Origin: Collinsella sp. TF08-11AT
Lineage (GTDB): Bacteria > Actinomycetota > Coriobacteriia > Coriobacteriales > Coriobacteriaceae
Assembly: GCF_003437035.1 (NCBI RefSeq)
Contig: NZ_QSRL01000002.1
Coordinates: forward strand, 124,001 to 188,000
Direction: 5' to 3'
Length of the DNA stretch: 64,000 bases
The position numbers and the translations under genes are program-made. The notes under the pieces are model-generated. The model did not search any database. It worked only from the letters and a program-made list of their open reading frames with translations, and had not been told where the DNA came from. Of this stretch, positions 10,776 to 18,531 are shown in pieces; the stretch's first letter is position 1; each line of letters begins with the position of its first letter.

Positions 10776-11993
10776 GTGTCTATGCGTACCGATGATTTTG
10801 ACTATAACCTTCCTGAGGAACTAATTGCCCAGGCGCCTGCCGAGCCGCGTGACTCCTGTCGCCTGCTGGTGGTGGATCGCAAGGGCTCCCAGGCGGGTAC
10901 GCCGCTGGAGCATGGCGGCACCGTTGAGCACCGCATCTTCCGCGACATCATCGACTATATCGAGCCGGGCGACGTGCTCGTCATCAACCAGACGCGCGTG
11001 ATGCCGGCCCGTCTGATCGGTCGCAAGACGGGCTCGGGCGGCGTGGTCGAGACGTTGCTGCTCAAGCGCCGCGAGGATGTTGACCCGCTGGGTCACGTTT
11101 GGGAGTGCCTGGTCAAGCCGGGCAAGCGTCTGAAGCCCGGGGCTCGGATTGAGTACCGTGCCGGTGGCGCCCATGCGCCCGAGGGAGCTCCCGTGGTGCT
11201 GACGGCCGAGGTCGTCGACTTTGTCACCGATAGTCGCGGCGGCCGCCTGGTGCGTTTTGAGCCGGTGGGTTGCAATGCCGCCGGCGAGCCGCGCACGCTC
11301 GACGAGGCCATTCATGCTGCCGGTCACGTTCCGCTGCCGCCCTACATTACCGATTACGAGGGCGATCCCGAGAAGTATCAGACCGTCTACGCTATGAAGG
11401 AGGAGCACTCGGCTGCCGCTCCTACGGCGGGCCTCCACTTTACGCCCGAGCTCATGGCCGCTATCGAGGCCAAGGGCGCGAAGTTTGCCGCCGTTGAGCT
11501 CGAGGTGGGTATCGATACCTTCCGCCTGGTGGAGGAGGACGACCCCACGCAGCATGTGATGCATACCGAGCGCTACCACGTATCGCAGGAGGTGGTCGAT
11601 GCCGTGCATAAGGCGAAGGCCGAGGGCCATCGCGTGATCGCCGTCGGCACCACCGCGGTGCGCTCGCTCGAGAGCGCGTTCGACAAGGATGCTCCGGTGT
11701 CTGATCCGGCTGTGACGGCGCGCTATTTTGAGGGTCGTGAGGACGGGGCCGATACGCTCGGCCGCGGTGACATCGTGGTGCGCGAGAACGCCACGACGCA
11801 GCTCTACCTCATGCCCGGCTCGACCTATCACGTGGTCGACGCGCTGATCACGAACTTCCATGTGCCGCGCTCCACGCTCATGATGCTCGTGAGCGCACTT
11901 GCTACCCGCGACCAGATCATGGATGCCTACGCCGCCGCCATCGAGGAGCGTTACCGCTTCTTCAGCTTTGGCGACGCGATGCTCATTCAGTAG
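10776..11993 (+). CDS. queA: S-adenosylmethionine:tRNA ribosyltransferase-isomerase
   Basis: A 405-residue QueA. It transfers and isomerises the ribosyl part of SAM onto 7-aminomethyl-7-deazaguanine in tRNA, forming epoxyqueuosine. Family landmarks include FDYNLPEELIAQ, the NQTRVMPARL segment, PLPPYI, the APTAGLHFT motif and the final ITNFHVPRSTLMML region. It is longer than the ~345-residue norm because of insertions around residues 125-185 and 305-330. The start is GTG at 10776, eight bases after AAGGAG; an ATG two codons later is too far from the site. The tgt gene, encoding the first dedicated tRNA step, lies 3.7 kb downstream. A structured RNA begins at the stop codon. Confidence 0.95.
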   Translation: MSMRTDDFDYNLPEELIAQAPAEPRDSCRLLVVDRKGSQAGTPLEHGGTVEHRIFRDIIDYIEPGDVLVINQTRVMPARLIGRKTGSGGVVETLLLKRREDVDPLGHVWECLVKPGKRLKPGARIEYRAGGAHAPEGAPVVLTAEVVDFVTDSRGGRLVRFEPVGCNAAGEPRTLDEAIHAAGHVPLPPYITDYEGDPEKYQTVYAMKEEHSAAAPTAGLHFTPELMAAIEAKGAKFAAVELEVGIDTFRLVEEDDPTQHVMHTERYHVSQEVVDAVHKAKAEGHRVIAVGTTAVRSLESAFDKDAPVSDPAVTARYFEGREDGADTLGRGDIVVRENATTQLYLMPGSTYHVVDALITNFHVPRSTLMMLVSALATRDQIMDAYAAAIEERYRFFSFGDAMLIQ

Positions 11994-12166
11994 GTTACGG
12001 CGTTTTCCAAACGCCGTAACCGGCCGACGCTGCAAACCCGCCAGAGCGGCAATCTGACGTTCAATCGTCGGGCATGACCAGAAGGTCAATGCCCTCCTCT
12101 TTCACGTCATCTTGCTCGCTCTGGCGGGTTTTCGCTGACTTTGCCAGAACATCGGTGTTGCCGTGG
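11993..12166 (+). ncRNA. Structured RNA element, copy A (covarying with copy B)
   Basis: Starting at the queA stop codon, a 13-bp hairpin (11993-12005 with 12009-12021) is followed by a multi-helix domain. A 15-bp stem (12034-12048 with 12117-12131) encloses a TGACGT/ACGTCA helix (12055-12060 with 12104-12109) and a hairpin with a GACC-AGAA-GGTC tip and a bulged A (12070-12094). A weaker closing helix joins the conserved 5' CCGGCCGACGCTGC with the 3' GTGTTGCC. The copy at 15265 has the same unpaired bases but different, still complementary, stems. Strand is assigned from its place after the stop and from G-U pairs in the closing helix. One pair in copy B would favour the other strand, so it is not settled. 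It may be the published Collinsella-1 motif, which I cannot confirm. Confidence 0.75.
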
Positions 12167-12169
12167 TTC

Positions 12170-12221
12170 AACCTGCCAAAAAGGGACAGGTTTATTTTGG
12201 CAGGTTTTATCTGGGCAAACG
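12170..12221 (+). repeat. REP-like palindrome with GGGACAGG core
   Basis: AACCTGCCAA and its complement flank an AGGGACAGGTTTA core, followed by a TTATCTGGGCAAAC tail. A nearly identical copy lies inverted at 22283-22334. Confidence 0.8.
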
Positions 12222-12230
12222 TTGTTGGCG

Positions 12231-12292
12231 CAATGGGGACTGGTTTATATGCACCAAGTTGGTGCAAAGTAGCCTGACCCCTTTGCACCAAA
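12231..12292. repeat. REP-like palindrome with GGGGTCAGG core
   Basis: TTGGTGCAAAG (12259-12269) pairs with CTTTGCACCAA (12281-12291). Read on the minus strand the loop gives AAAGGGGTCAGGCTAC, a variant of the AAAGGGGACAGGCACC core found in five other elements of this window with unrelated arms. Confidence 0.75.
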
Positions 12293-12293
12293 A

Positions 12294-12360
12294 AGTTGCG
12301 GTGAGATAGTGCTTGAATTGGCCTTTTTGAGGGCTAAACAGGAACTATCTCACCGCAACT
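12294..12360. repeat. Palindromic element with 17-bp arms
   Basis: Bases 12294-12310 and 12344-12360 are exact reverse complements (AGTTGCGGTGAGATAGT arm). The element at 25514-25582 shares most of the arm and the same loop layout with a GGCC inner pairing. It lies between the end of the queA transcript and the end of a convergent gene. Confidence 0.75.
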
Positions 12361-12386
12361 GCGTTGGGGCGTTTTTGGCAACTGGT

Positions 12387-14174
12387 TTACTTGCTCATGA
12401 ACAGCCAGATTGCGATGATCACCAGGATTGCGGCGATGATGCAGACGATGGCTCCGGTGAATTTGACGCGTGAGTCGCGGGTTCGCTTGCGCACGTCGTC
12501 TTCGGCGGCCTCGAGTTGGGCAACTTCGCGCTCGGTCTCGGTATGCTCGGCCTTGTCGCGTGCCAAGGACCCGGCGAGCGATTCGGTGATTTCGGGATGG
12601 TCATGCACCTCGGTCGCCTGCTCGATAATCGACTGCGCATGCGCGGCATCTGCCCGGGCGTTTGCGATGGCCTGCTCTTGCTCGCGGCGTGCCTTGTCCT
12701 GCGCGGTGATCTTTTCGCGCAGCTCGCGCTGACGCGTCGCGGCGGCAGTTTTTGCGGACTGCAGCTCGTCGCGCGCGGCATCTGCCTCGGCCGTTACGGC
12801 CTGGTGCGCGCGTTTAGCGTCGGCGATGGGAGCCTGTGCCTGTTCGACGGCCTGCTCGGCGGCGGCAAGTGAATGCTCAAGATCGGCGGTCACGCGCGGA
12901 ATGTCTTCCTCGGCCTTGCGGAGGGCGTCGGCAGCGTCGGAGATTTGCATAGACAGCTCGCTGGTGCGCACGGTGTAATTGGCGGGATTTGCCGAAGGGT
13001 TGCGCTGCAGCTCGGCATACTCGCGACGCAAGGTCTCGAGCTGTGCGCGCGTAGCATCGGCAGTTTGTCGTGCGGCGGCGACACCGGTATCGCGCTCAGC
13101 CTTCACTTTGTCGCGGATGCGCTTGGAATCTTCGAGTCGACGAACCAGGCGGTTGCCGGTCTCGCGTGAACTCGCCTCGCGGGCTTCCGCGGCGTCGAGT
13201 GCAGCCTTCAGGCGGAGTTCGGTCGCATCGTCCTCTGCTTTCATTTGCTCGAGCTGGCCCTTGAGCTCCGTCGCTTTGGCGGCATGGGCATCACGGTTAA
13301 TTTCAGCTGCCGCAGCGGTCTTTTGTGCCGTGGCGATTGCCTGGCGCTGGTCGGCGATGATCTGATCGTAGCGGCCTGCGATGTCCTGGCGCGTCTCGAG
13401 CTCCTCTGCCTGGTCGGCGATGCGCTGCTCAAGCTCGGACAGGTGGGCGCGGGCATCGGCGAGTGCCTTCTTTGCGGCGTTCATCTCGCGCATGGCCGAC
13501 GCGCCCTGGGCGATAAAAGTGCCCACGGCGTTAGCGGTGTTTGAGACGGCGCTCCCCAGGTCGCGGCTCGTGGCGGGGGCATGCGAGGTGGTCGGGTGCG
13601 CGGCCTCGGCGGCATTCGTATCGGCAGTCTGCGGCGCGGCGATATTGCCGGTGCCGCCTTCGATCACGGAAAAGCCCGCTGCATGCGGGTCGACGGCGTC
13701 CGCGCCAATCGTGGGATGCTCGAGCTGCAGAAACGAGGGCATAGTGCTGCCCTGATCGGCAACGGGGGTCTCGCCGGGTACAAAGGTCGAGGCGGCCTCG
13801 GCAGCCTCTTCCTCTTCGGCGTCAACGTCGGCATCGGCGACAGCGTCCTTCATCGCTTTGACGGCATCCATCATGGAGTCCATGACGGCGTCGAGCTCTT
13901 CTTCCGAAGACACCTCGATGGGGCCCGCTGCTTGCGGAGCGTTCTCAGCCTTGGGCTCAGTATCGCTCGGGTCCGGCTGCTCTAGCTGCTCTTCTTTGTC
14001 TTGCTCTGCGGCGACATTTGCGTCTGCGGCCTCGTCTACGGCGGCAGGAGCCTCCTCGACAGCGGCATCAATGCCGCCATCGCTTCTGGTGGAAGTATCG
14101 CAGTCGTCAATGGTGTCTGCGGAATTATCAATATGCTGTTGAGTCTGGGGGTCCAGCTCGTCTGTCATAGGCAT
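12387..14174 (-). CDS. Tail-anchored coiled-coil protein, unknown function
   Basis: A 595-residue protein. Residues 1-200 are acidic, Ala-, Glu- and Asp-rich and probably disordered. About 215-560 is a nearly continuous coiled coil with Ala/Glu/Arg/Gln heptads, broken near a Pro-Ser-Ala-Asn-Pro segment. Residues about 572-592 form one hydrophobic helix followed by four residues, so the protein is anchored by its C-terminus with the coil in the cytoplasm. The ATG at 14174 has GAGGAG five bases upstream; a longer frame exists but is unlikely. Such proteins resemble scaffold or cell-envelope organising proteins, but I recognise no specific family. It converges with queA and diverges from the SDR gene. 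Confidence 0.75.
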   Translation of the reverse strand: MPMTDELDPQTQQHIDNSADTIDDCDTSTRSDGGIDAAVEEAPAAVDEAADANVAAEQDKEEQLEQPDPSDTEPKAENAPQAAGPIEVSSEEELDAVMDSMMDAVKAMKDAVADADVDAEEEEAAEAASTFVPGETPVADQGSTMPSFLQLEHPTIGADAVDPHAAGFSVIEGGTGNIAAPQTADTNAAEAAHPTTSHAPATSRDLGSAVSNTANAVGTFIAQGASAMREMNAAKKALADARAHLSELEQRIADQAEELETRQDIAGRYDQIIADQRQAIATAQKTAAAAEINRDAHAAKATELKGQLEQMKAEDDATELRLKAALDAAEAREASSRETGNRLVRRLEDSKRIRDKVKAERDTGVAAARQTADATRAQLETLRREYAELQRNPSANPANYTVRTSELSMQISDAADALRKAEEDIPRVTADLEHSLAAAEQAVEQAQAPIADAKRAHQAVTAEADAARDELQSAKTAAATRQRELREKITAQDKARREQEQAIANARADAAHAQSIIEQATEVHDHPEITESLAGSLARDKAEHTETEREVAQLEAAEDDVRKRTRDSRVKFTGAIVCIIAAILVIIAIWLFMSK

Positions 14175-14462
14175 GTGCTCCTCATCGTTGTTCGTCACCC
14201 TATGATAAAGTCTCGCGCCGACATCCCGCGCCCCGCAGCAAAGTTTCAAAACGTGTTCGATGACTCGTTGCGTTAACAAAAACTCGGTCGCTCTATCCAA
14301 TTTTTACTTGACATTCCCTTCGCCGAAAGACGTTGCACCGTTCGCCTGCCATGGGCTTTATTTTTCACTTGAACCCGCTAAAGTTGCATGTCAGCTTTTG
14401 GCGCGTGAAGTTGGATGCGCGCAGTCGACGGGCGGGCCCGTCGCGATTTGAAAGGACTTTGT

Positions 14463-15263
14463 ATGGGACTTTTCACTGGTAAGACCGTGATCGTCACCGG
14501 CGGCGGCAAGGCCACGCTCAAGGACGGCTCCGCTGGCTCCATCGGTTACGGCATCGATATCGCTTTTGCCAAGGAGGGCGCGAACCTCGTCATCACTGGC
14601 CGCAACGTCGCCAAGCTCGAGGCCGCCAAGGAGTCTCTCGAGGCTGAGTACGGCGTCAAGGTTCTTCCTGTTCAGGCCGATGTCTCCGCCGGCCAGGACA
14701 ACGAGGCCGTCGTGCAGAACGTTATCGACAAGGCGATTGAGGAGTTCGGTCGTATCGACGCCGTCGTCAACAACGCTCAGGCCAGCGCCTCGGGTGTGAC
14801 CATCGCCGACCACACCATGGATCAGTTTAACCTGGCCATTTATTCCGGTCTGTATGCCACCTATCTGTACATGCAGAAGGCCTATCCGCACCTGAAGGAG
14901 ACCAAGGGCTCCGTGGTCAACTTTGCTTCGGGCGCCGGCCTGTTTGGCAACTACGGCCAGTGCAGCTATGCTGCCGCCAAGGAGGGCATCCGCGGCCTGA
15001 CTCGCGTCGCCGCCAACGAGTGGGGCAAGGACGGCATCAACGTCAATATCGTTTGCCCGCTTGCTTGGACCGCTGCGCTCGAGAACTTCCAGGATGCCTA
15101 TCCCGAGGCGTTCAAGGCCAACGTCCACATGCCGCCGGCGGGCCACTACGGCGACGTCGAGAAGGAGATCGGCCGCGTGGTCGTTCAGCTCTGCGGCCCC
15201 GACTTTAAGTATATGAACGGCGAGACCGTCACCCTCGAGGGCGGCATGGGCCAGCGTCCTTAG
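14463..15263 (+). CDS. SDR oxidoreductase, probable 12-alpha-hydroxysteroid dehydrogenase
   Basis: A 266-residue classical short-chain dehydrogenase. Seen: a Gly-rich cofactor loop with an insertion (VTGGGKATLKDGSAGSIGYG, 11-30), GRN after strand 2 (which favours NADP), NNAQAS (103-108), catalytic Ser156, Tyr169 and Lys173 in CSYAAAKEG, and a C-terminal LEGGMGQRP. From memory this protein matches the Clostridium scindens-type NADP-dependent 12-alpha-HSDH over nearly its whole length, including LYATFYY-like and FASGAGLFGN segments. That enzyme oxidises the 12-alpha-hydroxyl of cholic and deoxycholic acid, a known trait of related gut Coriobacteriia. AAAGGA lies seven bases before the ATG. Alternative: another SDR of the same subgroup with a non-steroid substrate. 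Confidence 0.75.
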   Translation: MGLFTGKTVIVTGGGKATLKDGSAGSIGYGIDIAFAKEGANLVITGRNVAKLEAAKESLEAEYGVKVLPVQADVSAGQDNEAVVQNVIDKAIEEFGRIDAVVNNAQASASGVTIADHTMDQFNLAIYSGLYATYLYMQKAYPHLKETKGSVVNFASGAGLFGNYGQCSYAAAKEGIRGLTRVAANEWGKDGINVNIVCPLAWTAALENFQDAYPEAFKANVHMPPAGHYGDVEKEIGRVVVQLCGPDFKYMNGETVTLEGGMGQRP

Positions 15264-15264
15264 G

Positions 15265-15439
15265 GGTTCCGCCGTTCTACCGAACGGCGGACCGGCCGAC
15301 GCTGCGCGGGCCGCATTTGGACAATCTGCCGTTCAATTTCAAGGGCGCGACCAGAAGGTCAGCGCCCTTTCATTTCACGGCACCTTGTCTCAAATGCGAC
15401 CCGCTCGCTGACGTTGCCAAAATATCGGCGTTGCCGTGG
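15265..15439 (+). ncRNA. Structured RNA element, copy B (covarying with copy A)
   Basis: It begins right after the SDR stop codon. A 5' hairpin (15268-15277 with 15282-15291) is followed by CCGGCCGACGCTGC. A 14-bp stem (15306-15319 with 15391-15404, one C-A mismatch) then encloses TGCCGT/ACGGCA (15327-15332 with 15377-15382) and a hairpin at 15343-15367 with the same GACC-AGAA-GGTC tip and bulged A as copy A. The outer stem differs from copy A at most positions yet still pairs. The inner stems show A-U to G-C type compensations, and the unpaired CAATC, TCAAT and CTTG are conserved. This pattern is strong evidence for selection on RNA structure. It lies about 260 bases upstream of tgt. Confidence 0.75.
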
Positions 15440-15453
15440 CTGGTAAATAGCTC

Positions 15454-15597
15454 CACTCATCGGGGACGTACTTAAATGAGTGCCCGCAGAATGAAAGTGG
15501 ATAATCTCCCGTTTTTGGGCTGTGCTTTGGGCAAAAGTGGGAGATTATCCACGCTCATCCGGTAAGCGTCCAAAAATCCACGCTCATTTGCCGTGTC
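15454..15597. repeat. Nested palindromic element with GGGGACGTAC core
   Basis: An inner 14-bp perfect stem (15497-15510 with 15539-15552) is surrounded by CACTCAT...ATGAGTG with a GGGGACGTACTT core on the left and a related CTCATTTGCCGTGTCCC on the right. Confidence 0.75.
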
Positions 15598-15632
15598 CCT
15601 GCCGTATCCTCCTCGCGCCAGTTTCTGTCGAG

Positions 15633-15662
15633 TCGGTGCTTCTTGCGGGTTGCCCGTATAAT
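15633..15662 (+). promoter_or_regulatory. Promoter of tgt
   Basis: A perfect TATAAT (15657-15662) lies 37 bases before the tgt start codon. The -35 region at proper spacing (around CGGTGC) is poor. Confidence 0.5.
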
Positions 15663-15699
15663 GGTTTGCGTATGAACCGCAACCAAGGAGTTCCAGTTT

Positions 15700-16839
15700 A
15701 TGGACCAGAGCCTTTTTAAATTCGACCTGATCGCCGAGGACCCGACCACGCACGCGCGTGCCGGCGTGCTGCATACCCCGCACGGCGATATCGAGACGCC
15801 GATCTTTATGCCCGTGGGCACCAAGGCAAACGTCAAGGGCATTCCCACCGAGACCGTCAAACAGCTCGGCGCGCAGATCGTGCTCGCCAATACCTACCAC
15901 CTGTCCATGCGCCCCGGCGAGGACACCATCGCCGAGCTGGGCGGACTGCACAAGTTCATGAACTGGCACGGCCCCATCCTCACCGACTCGGGCGGCTTCC
16001 AGGTGTTTAGCCATAACGACGCCGTCAAGCTCACTGACGAGGGCGTGCGCTTTATCGTCAATGACTACGACGGCCGCCACGTGTTCTGGACGCCCGAGGA
16101 CAACATGGCAATCGCCATGAAGCTCGGCTCCGACATCTGCATGCAGCTCGATCAGTGCCCCGGCTATCCCGCCACGCGCGCCTACGTCGAGCGCGCCGTG
16201 GAGCTGTCGAGCATGTGGGCCGAGCGCTGCTACAAGGCTCACACCCGCGATGACCAGGCACTCTTTGGCATCGTCCAGGGTGGCATGCATCTGGATCTGC
16301 GCCTGCGATCGCTGCGCCACCTGGAGGAGTGCGGCGACTTCCCCGGTTACGGCATCGGCGGCTACTCGGTGGGCGAGGACCACGAGACCATGTTCGAGAC
16401 GCTGGCGCCGCTGGTTTCCGAGTACATGCCTAAGCACAAGCCGCGCTACCTCATGGGCGTCGGCAACCCTACCACGCTCGTGCGCGGCGTTGGCGTGGGC
16501 ATCGACATGTTCGACTGCGTGCTGCCGACGCGCACCGGCCGCATGGGCACGGCATTCTCCAGCGAGGGTCGCCTCAACTTCCGCAACGCCCGCTTTGCGC
16601 ACGACGACGGCCCCATCGACCCCACCTGCACCTGCCCGGTGTGCACGGGCGGCTACAGCCGCGCGCTCATCCGCCACATGGTCACGCAGAAGGAGATGCT
16701 CGGCGGCATTCTGCTTTCGATGCACAACATCTACTACCTGCTCAACCTTATGCAGCGCGCCCGCCAGGCCATTATCGAGGGCCGCTACGGCGCGTTTGTG
16801 AGCGACTGGATGAACAGCCCTGCGGCGGTGGACTACTAA
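15700..16839 (+). CDS. tgt: Queuine tRNA-ribosyltransferase (tRNA-guanine transglycosylase)
   Basis: A 379-residue Tgt, the normal length. It exchanges guanine 34 of GUN anticodons for preQ1 in the cytoplasm, upstream of QueA and QueH in queuosine synthesis. Motifs: ANTYHLSMRPG, LTDSGGFQVF (general-base Asp), GGYSVGE, the nucleophile region GIDMFDCVLPTR, and the zinc site CTCPVC followed by a distal His. AAGGAG precedes the ATG. It has its own TATAAT promoter and is followed by a structured region and a strong terminator. No preQ1-synthesis genes (queCDEF) are in the window, so the base may be made elsewhere or salvaged. Confidence 0.96.
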   Translation: MDQSLFKFDLIAEDPTTHARAGVLHTPHGDIETPIFMPVGTKANVKGIPTETVKQLGAQIVLANTYHLSMRPGEDTIAELGGLHKFMNWHGPILTDSGGFQVFSHNDAVKLTDEGVRFIVNDYDGRHVFWTPEDNMAIAMKLGSDICMQLDQCPGYPATRAYVERAVELSSMWAERCYKAHTRDDQALFGIVQGGMHLDLRLRSLRHLEECGDFPGYGIGGYSVGEDHETMFETLAPLVSEYMPKHKPRYLMGVGNPTTLVRGVGVGIDMFDCVLPTRTGRMGTAFSSEGRLNFRNARFAHDDGPIDPTCTCPVCTGGYSRALIRHMVTQKEMLGGILLSMHNIYYLLNLMQRARQAIIEGRYGAFVSDWMNSPAAVDY

Positions 16840-17920: not shown

Positions 17921-18220
17921 ATGTCTACTGCAACGGTTAAGCCTACGACGGTTCGCATCGAAGAGGGGCTCAAGGAACAGGCGACTGAGTTTTTGGATAC
18001 GGTTGGTCTGAGTCTCAATTCGTATCTCAACCTTGCTGTTCGGCAGCTGGTAAATCAACGAAAGATTCCTTTTGAGATCGTAGGAAGGGCGGAGGTGCCC
18101 AACGAGGCAACGAGGCGTGCCATGGTGATCGCCGAAGCTCATGAGTTGGGGATTCTGCCGGACGACAGCCCGTCATTCAATAACGCTGATGAGCTTATAT
18201 CATTCCTCGATGAGGACTAG
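17921..18220 (+). CDS. RelB/DinJ family antitoxin
   Basis: A 99-residue type II antitoxin. The N-terminus (TVRIEEGLKEQATEFLDTVG then LSLNSYLNLAVRQLV) is a ribbon-helix-helix DNA-binding domain; the C-terminal half is acidic and would wrap the toxin. It neutralises the YafQ-like toxin encoded three bases downstream and, with it, should repress the operator repeats just upstream. It is preceded by AGGAGG. The gene pair stands next to the TOTE-type helicase and a MITE-like element, so the block looks like an accessory island. Confidence 0.9.
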   Translation: MSTATVKPTTVRIEEGLKEQATEFLDTVGLSLNSYLNLAVRQLVNQRKIPFEIVGRAEVPNEATRRAMVIAEAHELGILPDDSPSFNNADELISFLDED

Positions 18221-18222
18221 CG

Positions 18223-18531
18223 ATGTTTGAGATTAAGGTCGAGGCTCAGTTTAAGGCGGATTACAAACGGGCGATGCGCATCCATCCGCAGCTAAAAACC
18301 GAGTTTAAGGCGGCGGTCGCAGAGCTTGCGGCTCACGGCTCGCTTCCCGCGGAATATGGTGCCCACGAGCTTTCAAACCCGGGCGGCAACTACAACGGCC
18401 ACATCGATTTCCATCTATCCGATGGCATGGTCGATGTGGTCGTTCTCTATCTGCCGCATAAGACTAATCCGGTGATCCGGCTGGTGAGAATGGGCTCGCA
18501 TGAGGAGCTGTTTCAGGGTCCGCAGGGCTGA
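18223..18531 (+). CDS. YafQ family mRNA interferase toxin
   Basis: A 102-residue toxin of the RelE/YafQ superfamily. YafQ cleaves mRNA in the ribosome at in-frame Lys codons. Candidate catalytic residues in the family pattern are His48, His60 or His64, Asp67, His93 and Phe97 (GSHEELF near the end). The N-terminal VEAQFKADYKRAMR helix is the standard family start. It is separated from the antitoxin gene by three bases, so the two are translationally linked. The key residues are present, so it should be active. Confidence 0.9.
   Translation: MFEIKVEAQFKADYKRAMRIHPQLKTEFKAAVAELAAHGSLPAEYGAHELSNPGGNYNGHIDFHLSDGMVDVVVLYLPHKTNPVIRLVRMGSHEELFQGPQG

Follow-up and report, generated by a model that had tools for sequence, protein, structure and literature searches.

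Structured, modular elements directly behind stop codons in Collinsella and other Coriobacteriales as candidate mRNA 3'-end modules

Introduction

Several kinds of dispersed palindrome occupy the space between bacterial genes. Repetitive extragenic palindromes (REPs) and bacterial interspersed mosaic elements (BIMEs) are dispersed extragenic palindromes of mosaic build that lie at gene ends and between the genes of operons; REPs are short palindromes with conserved stem letters, occur in over 100 copies and can protect mRNA 3' ends. The attC sites of integrons sit directly behind stop codons and combine variable stems, conserved unpaired bases and a better-folded strand with terminal boxes of the form RYYYAAC ... 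GTTRRRY. ERIC, BOX, NEMIS and bcr1, from other bacteria, are dispersed imperfect palindromes of 100-170 nucleotides (nt), some with compensatory changes, in which the stem letters are mostly conserved and the position is not fixed at a stop codon. Here, we analyze two structured elements, A and B, from a 64,000-nt stretch of the Collinsella sp. TF08-11AT genome (contig NZ_QSRL01000002.1, positions 124,001 to 188,000; hereafter the window), together with the family to which they belong.

For Collinsella and its relatives, which are common in the gut, few genetic data are available. Transcript mapping and expression engineering in these bacteria would both be affected by an element that stands unannotated where ribosomal, RNA polymerase, translation and division genes end. 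In a preliminary description of the window, A and B were proposed to be two copies of a selected, multicopy structured RNA.

A Family of Elements Across the Coriobacteriales

Elements A and B belong to a family of modular elements of about 170 nt, each consisting of a 5' hairpin, GACGCTGC, a long interrupted hairpin, and CGCTGAC followed by a tail. The 5' hairpin has 12-13 base pairs (bp) and is followed by GCCGACGCTGC or a close variant, a flank in which GACGCTG is invariant across alignment A3. The long hairpin contains two conserved internal loops, and its apical hairpin, with a loop that is usually 4 nt long and mostly ends in AA, is followed on its 3' side by a pyrimidine-rich strand.

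A covariance model built from 24 aligned copies (R1) matches 37 of 43 Collinsella genomes and 48 of 65 genomes of the same bacterial family. Among the matches listed, the 21 genomes of the aerofaciens clade have 29-41 each, a 72% complete genome has 12, and the remaining genomes have 0-15, counts that include fragments and some palindromic copies matched on both strands. In one genome assembled as a single contig of 2.3 Mb (G003), about 27 copies are full-length, a set that excludes L171, the lowest-scoring of its 28 loci. A second model (R2), built on the sequences matched in other species and genera, has hits in 136 of the 297 genomes of the order, in 38 of 107 genera. When the phylum was sampled evenly, 20 of 396 genomes matched, every one of them in the same order, and this confinement serves as a specificity control. 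Three genomes of a second family, probably Eggerthellaceae, have 29, 44 and 39 R2 matches (112 in total), from which 30 loci were taken for the locus analyses below. The elements were thus correctly described as multicopy, further copies are present in relatives, and the order-wide family, still without a name, is confirmed to be far larger than the two window copies.

A search of the window against Rfam 15 at gathering scores returned only a tRNA and nothing on element A or B. At E up to 5, positions 11900-15700 gave sub-threshold chance matches only, with RF01700 absent; one of these sub-threshold matches, to Scr1601 (17.3 vs 100 bits), overlaps the start of element B. Similarly, 14 further element loci compared with Rfam at E up to 0.5 gave only a tRNA. 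The preliminary description had raised the possibility that the elements are Collinsella-1 (RF01700). They are not: neither window element matches RF01700, and the RF01700 loci L142 and L143 are unmatched by R1. We therefore give practically no credence to membership in Collinsella-1 or another known Rfam family, in favor of which there is a shared genus and similar length and nothing more. Collinsella-1 RNA was not found in open-licence papers, and the titles and abstract openings of those listed name no element of the present kind in Coriobacteriales.

Compensatory Change and Selection on Structure

The compensatory changes first noted between the two window copies hold well beyond them, with double changes at 31 of 54 consensus pairs in the 24-copy alignment and at 48 of 50 pairs in a larger set of 83 distinct matched sequences, which covers eight genera and two families. 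Of the 4062 cells compared in the larger set, 89.9% are paired, vs 62.4% after shuffling, and this fraction falls to 35.3-41.3% when partners are displaced by 1-3 columns; covariation in the enlarged alignment is therefore strong. Elements A and B themselves have folding z-scores of -9.45 and -8.46, respectively, and 0 of 200 shuffles folded as well.

Double changes could in principle be mutational, if template switching during replication re-makes complementary arms with no selection on shape, and one clear product of this kind was observed at L157 (G003, 1501-1673), where the 5' half recurs as its reverse complement in the 3' half and the apex is inverted, as in a hairpin template-switch product. 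However, the internal loops are asymmetric, are conserved across both families and are kept where the stems have changed. Moreover, aerofaciens cores that differ at one or two positions show 55 single changes at paired positions vs 3 doubles, and double changes grow with the distance between cores (these counts come from pairwise comparisons, in which events are not independent). Because singles outnumber doubles at short distance and doubles accumulate with distance, the pattern is one of ordinary compensatory evolution, beyond what template switching alone produces. Template switching as the sole source of the double changes is rejected on the 55 singles vs 3 doubles, and we regard a family free of shape selection as very improbable.

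Placement at Stop Codons

In G003, 22 of the 27 copies begin between -2 and +6 nt from a stop codon on the same strand (22 of 28 with L171 added), where 1.8 are expected and the maximum in 20000 draws was 8. The second family shows the same placement, with 19 of 30 copies in this interval (5.2 expected, maximum 13). The expectation assumes uniform placement within the same spacers, with 7 positions counted, and when the start is restricted to 0 to +6 the counts are 19 and 17, respectively. At eight loci of other Coriobacteriaceae genera inspected by eye, a core lacking the 5' hairpin adjoins the stop codon. Host genes, called with a codon-usage script and named by a model, include queA, prfA, lysS, rplX, rplS, secY, frr, ftsZ, hisB, rpoZ and the end of rpoC. 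At L234 and L239, around position 1501, one arm of the 5' hairpin codes for the last residues of the host protein, which we take to be PurC, and the stop codon itself falls within the loop of this hairpin.

Stops near elements are TAG in 64 of 79 cases, vs 212 of 358 called genes, with slots shared by several genomes counted repeatedly. Stop usage across the aerofaciens-rich loci (358 called genes) is TAG 212, TAA 134 and TGA 12. TAG as a special target was rejected, since it is the commonest stop anyway.

There is also a hint of replichore polarity as a separate signal. In G123, 38 of 39 copies are on the leading strand vs 135 of 179 sampled genes (Fisher p 0.0006), in G003 the figures are 23 of 27 copies vs 139 of 185 genes (p 0.18), and in G114 and G272, 41 of 44 and 27 of 29 copies fit two polar arcs, the borders of which were fitted (sign-shuffled maxima 36 and 25).

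Occupancy and Exchange at prfA and Other Slots

Occupancy was followed most closely behind prfA, where 30 of 62 loci were examined. All 20 examined loci of the aerofaciens clade carry an element at most 3 nt from the prfA stop, of which 17 are whole, two (L307 and L318) are cut by a contig end and one (L317) is interrupted, and in 13 of the 20 the element apex bears a terminator-like hairpin with a T tract. None of the 10 examined prfA loci of other species has an element there; an ordinary terminator of -13 to -25 kcal/mol is present in 9 of them. By our own gene calls (L302-L331), the next gene starts 590-723 nt past prfA where an element is present and 124-311 nt past it otherwise.

The prfA slot holds several types and combinations of 5' hairpins, cores and tails. 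Mean core identity is 0.79-0.83 within a slot (for prfA, 18 of the 20 loci with a full core) vs 0.77 between different slots, in the presence of 94-96% identity in the gene in front, and 27 of 513 between-slot core pairs are at least 95% identical. Modules are exchanged within slots and between them, and a slot retains its element while the type changes. Between families the slots themselves differ: upstream proteins were found at 23 of 27 G003 and 22 of 29 second-family loci, and these 23 and 22 proteins include one close homologous pair (65% identity). C. stercoris retains a diverged homologue behind the dehydrogenase gene (R2 38.6 bits).

Among the sites listed, those without an element are diverged or rearranged, apart from one. 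Locus L007 (12101-12200) has a core-only copy without flanks or 5' hairpin, with an ordinary terminator behind it, and the same slot is empty in L004, where the core-only copy is absent between CCCC repeats.

Candidate Function at mRNA 3' Ends

From these comparisons we tentatively favor a reading in which the order-wide, modular, dispersed and structure-selected elements directly behind stop codons act as portable mRNA 3'-end modules. This reading is preferred because the place of the element is fixed relative to the coding end and because other species have terminators at the site that it occupies. The element would be transcribed together with the gene in front, and both hairpins, the one at the stop codon and the long interrupted one, may then shield the 3' end of the message from exonucleases. 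In many Collinsella copies the apical hairpin and its U-rich strand may also terminate transcription, and 15 of 29 aerofaciens copies have a terminator-like site at position 100-105; termination would be a trait added in Collinsella. If mainly shape is needed, stems would be able to drift and to be exchanged by recombination among copies, with copies reaching new gene ends by some mobility mechanism.

Several observations weigh against this reading, the first of which concern termination. A terminator-like site lies behind the element in 8 of 29 aerofaciens copies, which is not clearly fewer than the 42 of 100 found at other gene ends. Second-family copies have a T tract at the apex in 1 of 29 cases, and anywhere in 6 of 29, and some stand between rplX and rplE and between hisB and hisH (15 nt from the next gene), which argues against efficient termination there; a simple terminator everywhere was rejected for the second family on account of these copies. 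Among the 17 prfA element loci with enough sequence for a longer scan, none has a terminator-like site 172-240 nt past the prfA stop, and 8 have a weak one (-8.0 to -11.8 kcal/mol) at 242-380 nt. These far sites weaken the idea that ordinary terminators were simply lost behind the prfA element, and they lowered our confidence in a 3'-end module from even to slightly below even. In addition, pairing seems to be dispensable at some slots, as the copy in the G003 queA slot (L164, 1501-1670) is a chimera with long-stem arms of two types that no longer pair, and L001 contains one deleted copy and one copy (1685-1853) interrupted near the apex by a gene that presumably encodes an IS200-type transposase.

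The second group of difficulties concerns the strand. With RNA parameters, 76 of 78 cores (the 83 distinct sequences minus five without usable flanks) are more stable as the reverse complement, and with DNA parameters the bottom strand is more stable in 74 of 78. Core cells contain 99 G.U vs 141 A.C combinations (82 A.C without two conserved C.A/A.C positions), and at the shortest distances there are 16 G.U vs 22 A.C, so the intermediates show no strand preference. The 5' hairpin alone has 28 G.U vs 4 A.C. The energy difference is not decisive, because the pyrimidine-rich loops destabilize the gene strand by themselves. For the proposal of a selected, multicopy structured RNA, then, the selection on structure and the location in 3' untranslated or intercistronic sequence stand, but action as RNA is put in doubt by the lack of a G.U preference and the better fold of the reverse complement.

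The same strand data could be read as an antisense RNA, transcribed autonomously off the opposite strand, with a long hairpin, tandem G-A pairs and U-rich tetraloops, that ends at the stop of the facing gene. The opposite strand folds better in nearly all cores, as given above, and in the second family it converts the conserved C.A mismatches to G.U (22 vs 98 G.U pairs). However, G.U counts in the aerofaciens copies are equal between strands (39 and 38), the conserved pyrimidine-rich, U-rich loop strand lies on the gene strand, and inspection of the conserved tails by eye revealed no conserved -10-like hexamer of a promoter on the opposite strand. We consider such an RNA improbable.

Folded Mobile DNA as a Rival Reading

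The main rival of a 3'-end module is selfish, non-autonomous mobile DNA, the folded single strand of which would be recognized by a recombinase or transposase, as with attC sites and REP elements. Shape would then be kept because the enzyme reads shape, and the place at stop codons would reflect target choice combined with the purging of harmful insertions. This is a real possibility, and several of the results above are consistent with it, namely selection on pairing without a G.U preference, the more stable bottom strand under DNA parameters as well, module swapping with nested and truncated copies, the turnover of slots between families, and the L157 copy, which is best read as a DNA strand folding back during replication.

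On the other hand, full occupancy of the prfA slot in the examined clade loci looks more like vertical keeping than free jumping, and no target duplication was read among the sites listed. REP and BIME elements have REP-associated tyrosine transposases (RAYTs; PMC2817692). Such a transposase was rejected as the mobilizer here, as no R1 match was found within 1500 nt at any of the 12 Y1 transposase (PF01797) loci examined, out of 31 transposase matches in 17 genomes. Carriage by viruses was likewise rejected, since an exact pattern scan gave 3 viral contigs, none of which R2 matches at E up to 0.001.

A 3'-end module and a folded-DNA element are compatible if a mobile element was put to use. 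More specifically, the family may be a new Coriobacteriales mobile element that targets stop codons, is recognized by its shape and not its sequence (probably on the folded bottom strand), swaps modules among dozens of slots, and has come to occupy the 3' ends of core genes, among them prfA, at which relatives have kept ordinary terminators; this version we hold to be unlikely. The elements provide an unusually clean example of selected shape and free sequence with strain-level replacement at fixed sites, so that the level at which selection acts, RNA or DNA, is open to direct test on them.

Elements A and B in the Window

Both window elements were recovered where they had been described, including the blocks, stems and tip quoted for them (Table 1), and both do begin at the stop codon of a plus-strand gene: the first base of A is the G of the queA TAG (11991-11993), and the first base of B lies one base behind the TAG (15261-15263) of the short-chain dehydrogenase gene. 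The long stems pair in both copies as reported, but in B the long stem has about 16 bp, interrupted by an opposed C/A, where 14 bp with one mismatch had been reported. The CAA/TTG blocks, earlier taken as single-stranded, are paired in the folds and lengthen the long stem. Stem types of the 5' hairpin of A differ among relatives with pairing retained, and the position of TCCTCTTTC in A is a T tract in many sister copies. The window resembles C. aerofaciens, as its tgt protein is 99-100% identical to that of C. aerofaciens records.

Table 1. Coordinates of elements A and B, their parts and their host genes within the window.
Feature	Position	Strand	Description
queA, host gene of slot A	10776..11993	+	NCBIfam TIGR00113 and NF001140 above cut-off
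Element A	11993..12163	+	Directly behind queA stop codon; R1 175.5 bits, E 4.3e-45; R2 139.6 bits
A, 5' hairpin module	11993..12021	+	13 bp, 3-nt loop; from fold
A, conserved flank GCCGACGCTGC	12023..12033	+	From sequence
A, long interrupted hairpin	12034..12131	+	Arms 12034-12048 / 12117-12131; helix 2 12055-12060 / 12104-12109
A, apical helix	within 12034..12131	+	GGGCAT/ATGCCC and GACC-AGAA-GGTC, bulged A 12088
A, strand TCCTCTTTC 3' of apical hairpin	12095..12103	+	From sequence; scored not terminator-like
A, conserved CGCTGAC and tail TTTGCCAGAACATCGGTGTTGCC	12133..12162	+	From sequence and A3 alignment
Short-chain dehydrogenase gene, host of slot B	14463..15263	+	207 NCBIfam families match, best short-chain dehydrogenase/reductase (SDR)-type; best below its cut-off
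Element B	15265..15436	+	Behind short-chain dehydrogenase stop, upstream of tgt; R1 184 bits, E 2.1e-47; R2 128.8 bits
B, 5' hairpin module	15265..15293	+	One unpaired T; from fold
B, conserved flank GCCGACGCTGC	15295..15305	+	From sequence
B, long interrupted hairpin	15306..15404	+	Arms 15306-15321 / 15388-15404; helix 2 15327-15332 / 15377-15382
B, apical helix	within 15306..15404	+	GGGCGC/GCGCCC and GACC-AGAA-GGTC, bulged A 15361
B, strand TTTCATTTC 3' of apical hairpin	15368..15376	+	Scored terminator-like
B, conserved CGCTGAC and tail GTTGCCAAAATATCGGCGTTG	15406..15433	+	From sequence and alignment

Other repeats surround the two elements. Two more long inverted repeats lie at 12296-12360 and 15496-15559; their kinds, GTTGCGGTGAGATAG and GTGGATAATCTCCC, are also present behind other genes in relatives. 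Stems of the GTTGCGGTGAGATAG kind are changed among relatives, and some repeats of the two kinds have a T tract at the end. The spacers at 12160-12300 and 15440-15480 are filled by further short palindromic repeats (GGGGACGTTCTTAAATGA and GGGACAGGTTTATTTTGGCAGG types), which we take to be REP-like and which vary between strains. Elsewhere in the window (17921-18531) lies a gene pair for a RelB/DinJ-type antitoxin (below cut-off) and a RelE-type toxin.

Comparison with Known Systems

With Rho-independent terminators the elements share a place at gene ends and, in about half of the aerofaciens copies, a T tract behind the apical hairpin; however, the elements are much larger, have conserved internal loops and flanks, and are tolerated inside operons of the second family. 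Collinsella-1 is likewise structured, comes from the same genus and spans 196 positions, but mostly has one match per genome, is present in 24 of 43 genomes, and has no R1 match at the two loci compared.

The attC sites share with the elements a place at stop codons, variable stems alongside conserved unpaired bases, an apparent reading by shape and a strand that folds better, whereas the elements are single copies scattered behind core genes, with no cassette arrays among the loci seen. By eye, the AAC ... GTT of attC terminal boxes does not appear in that order, as the cores have GACGCTGC ... CGCTGAC and the 5' hairpin has GTT ... AAC. The elements are similar to REP and BIME elements in their gene-end and intergenic place and their mosaic build, and differ in a length of about 170 nt, hypervariable stems (nearly all pairs doubly changed) and tens of copies per genome. 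With ERIC, BOX, NEMIS and bcr1 they share a dispersed palindromic form, but not the free stems or the fixed place at the stop codon. Taken together, the elements are an unnamed family of the dispersed-palindrome kind, set apart from those described by their fixed stop-codon place and free stems.

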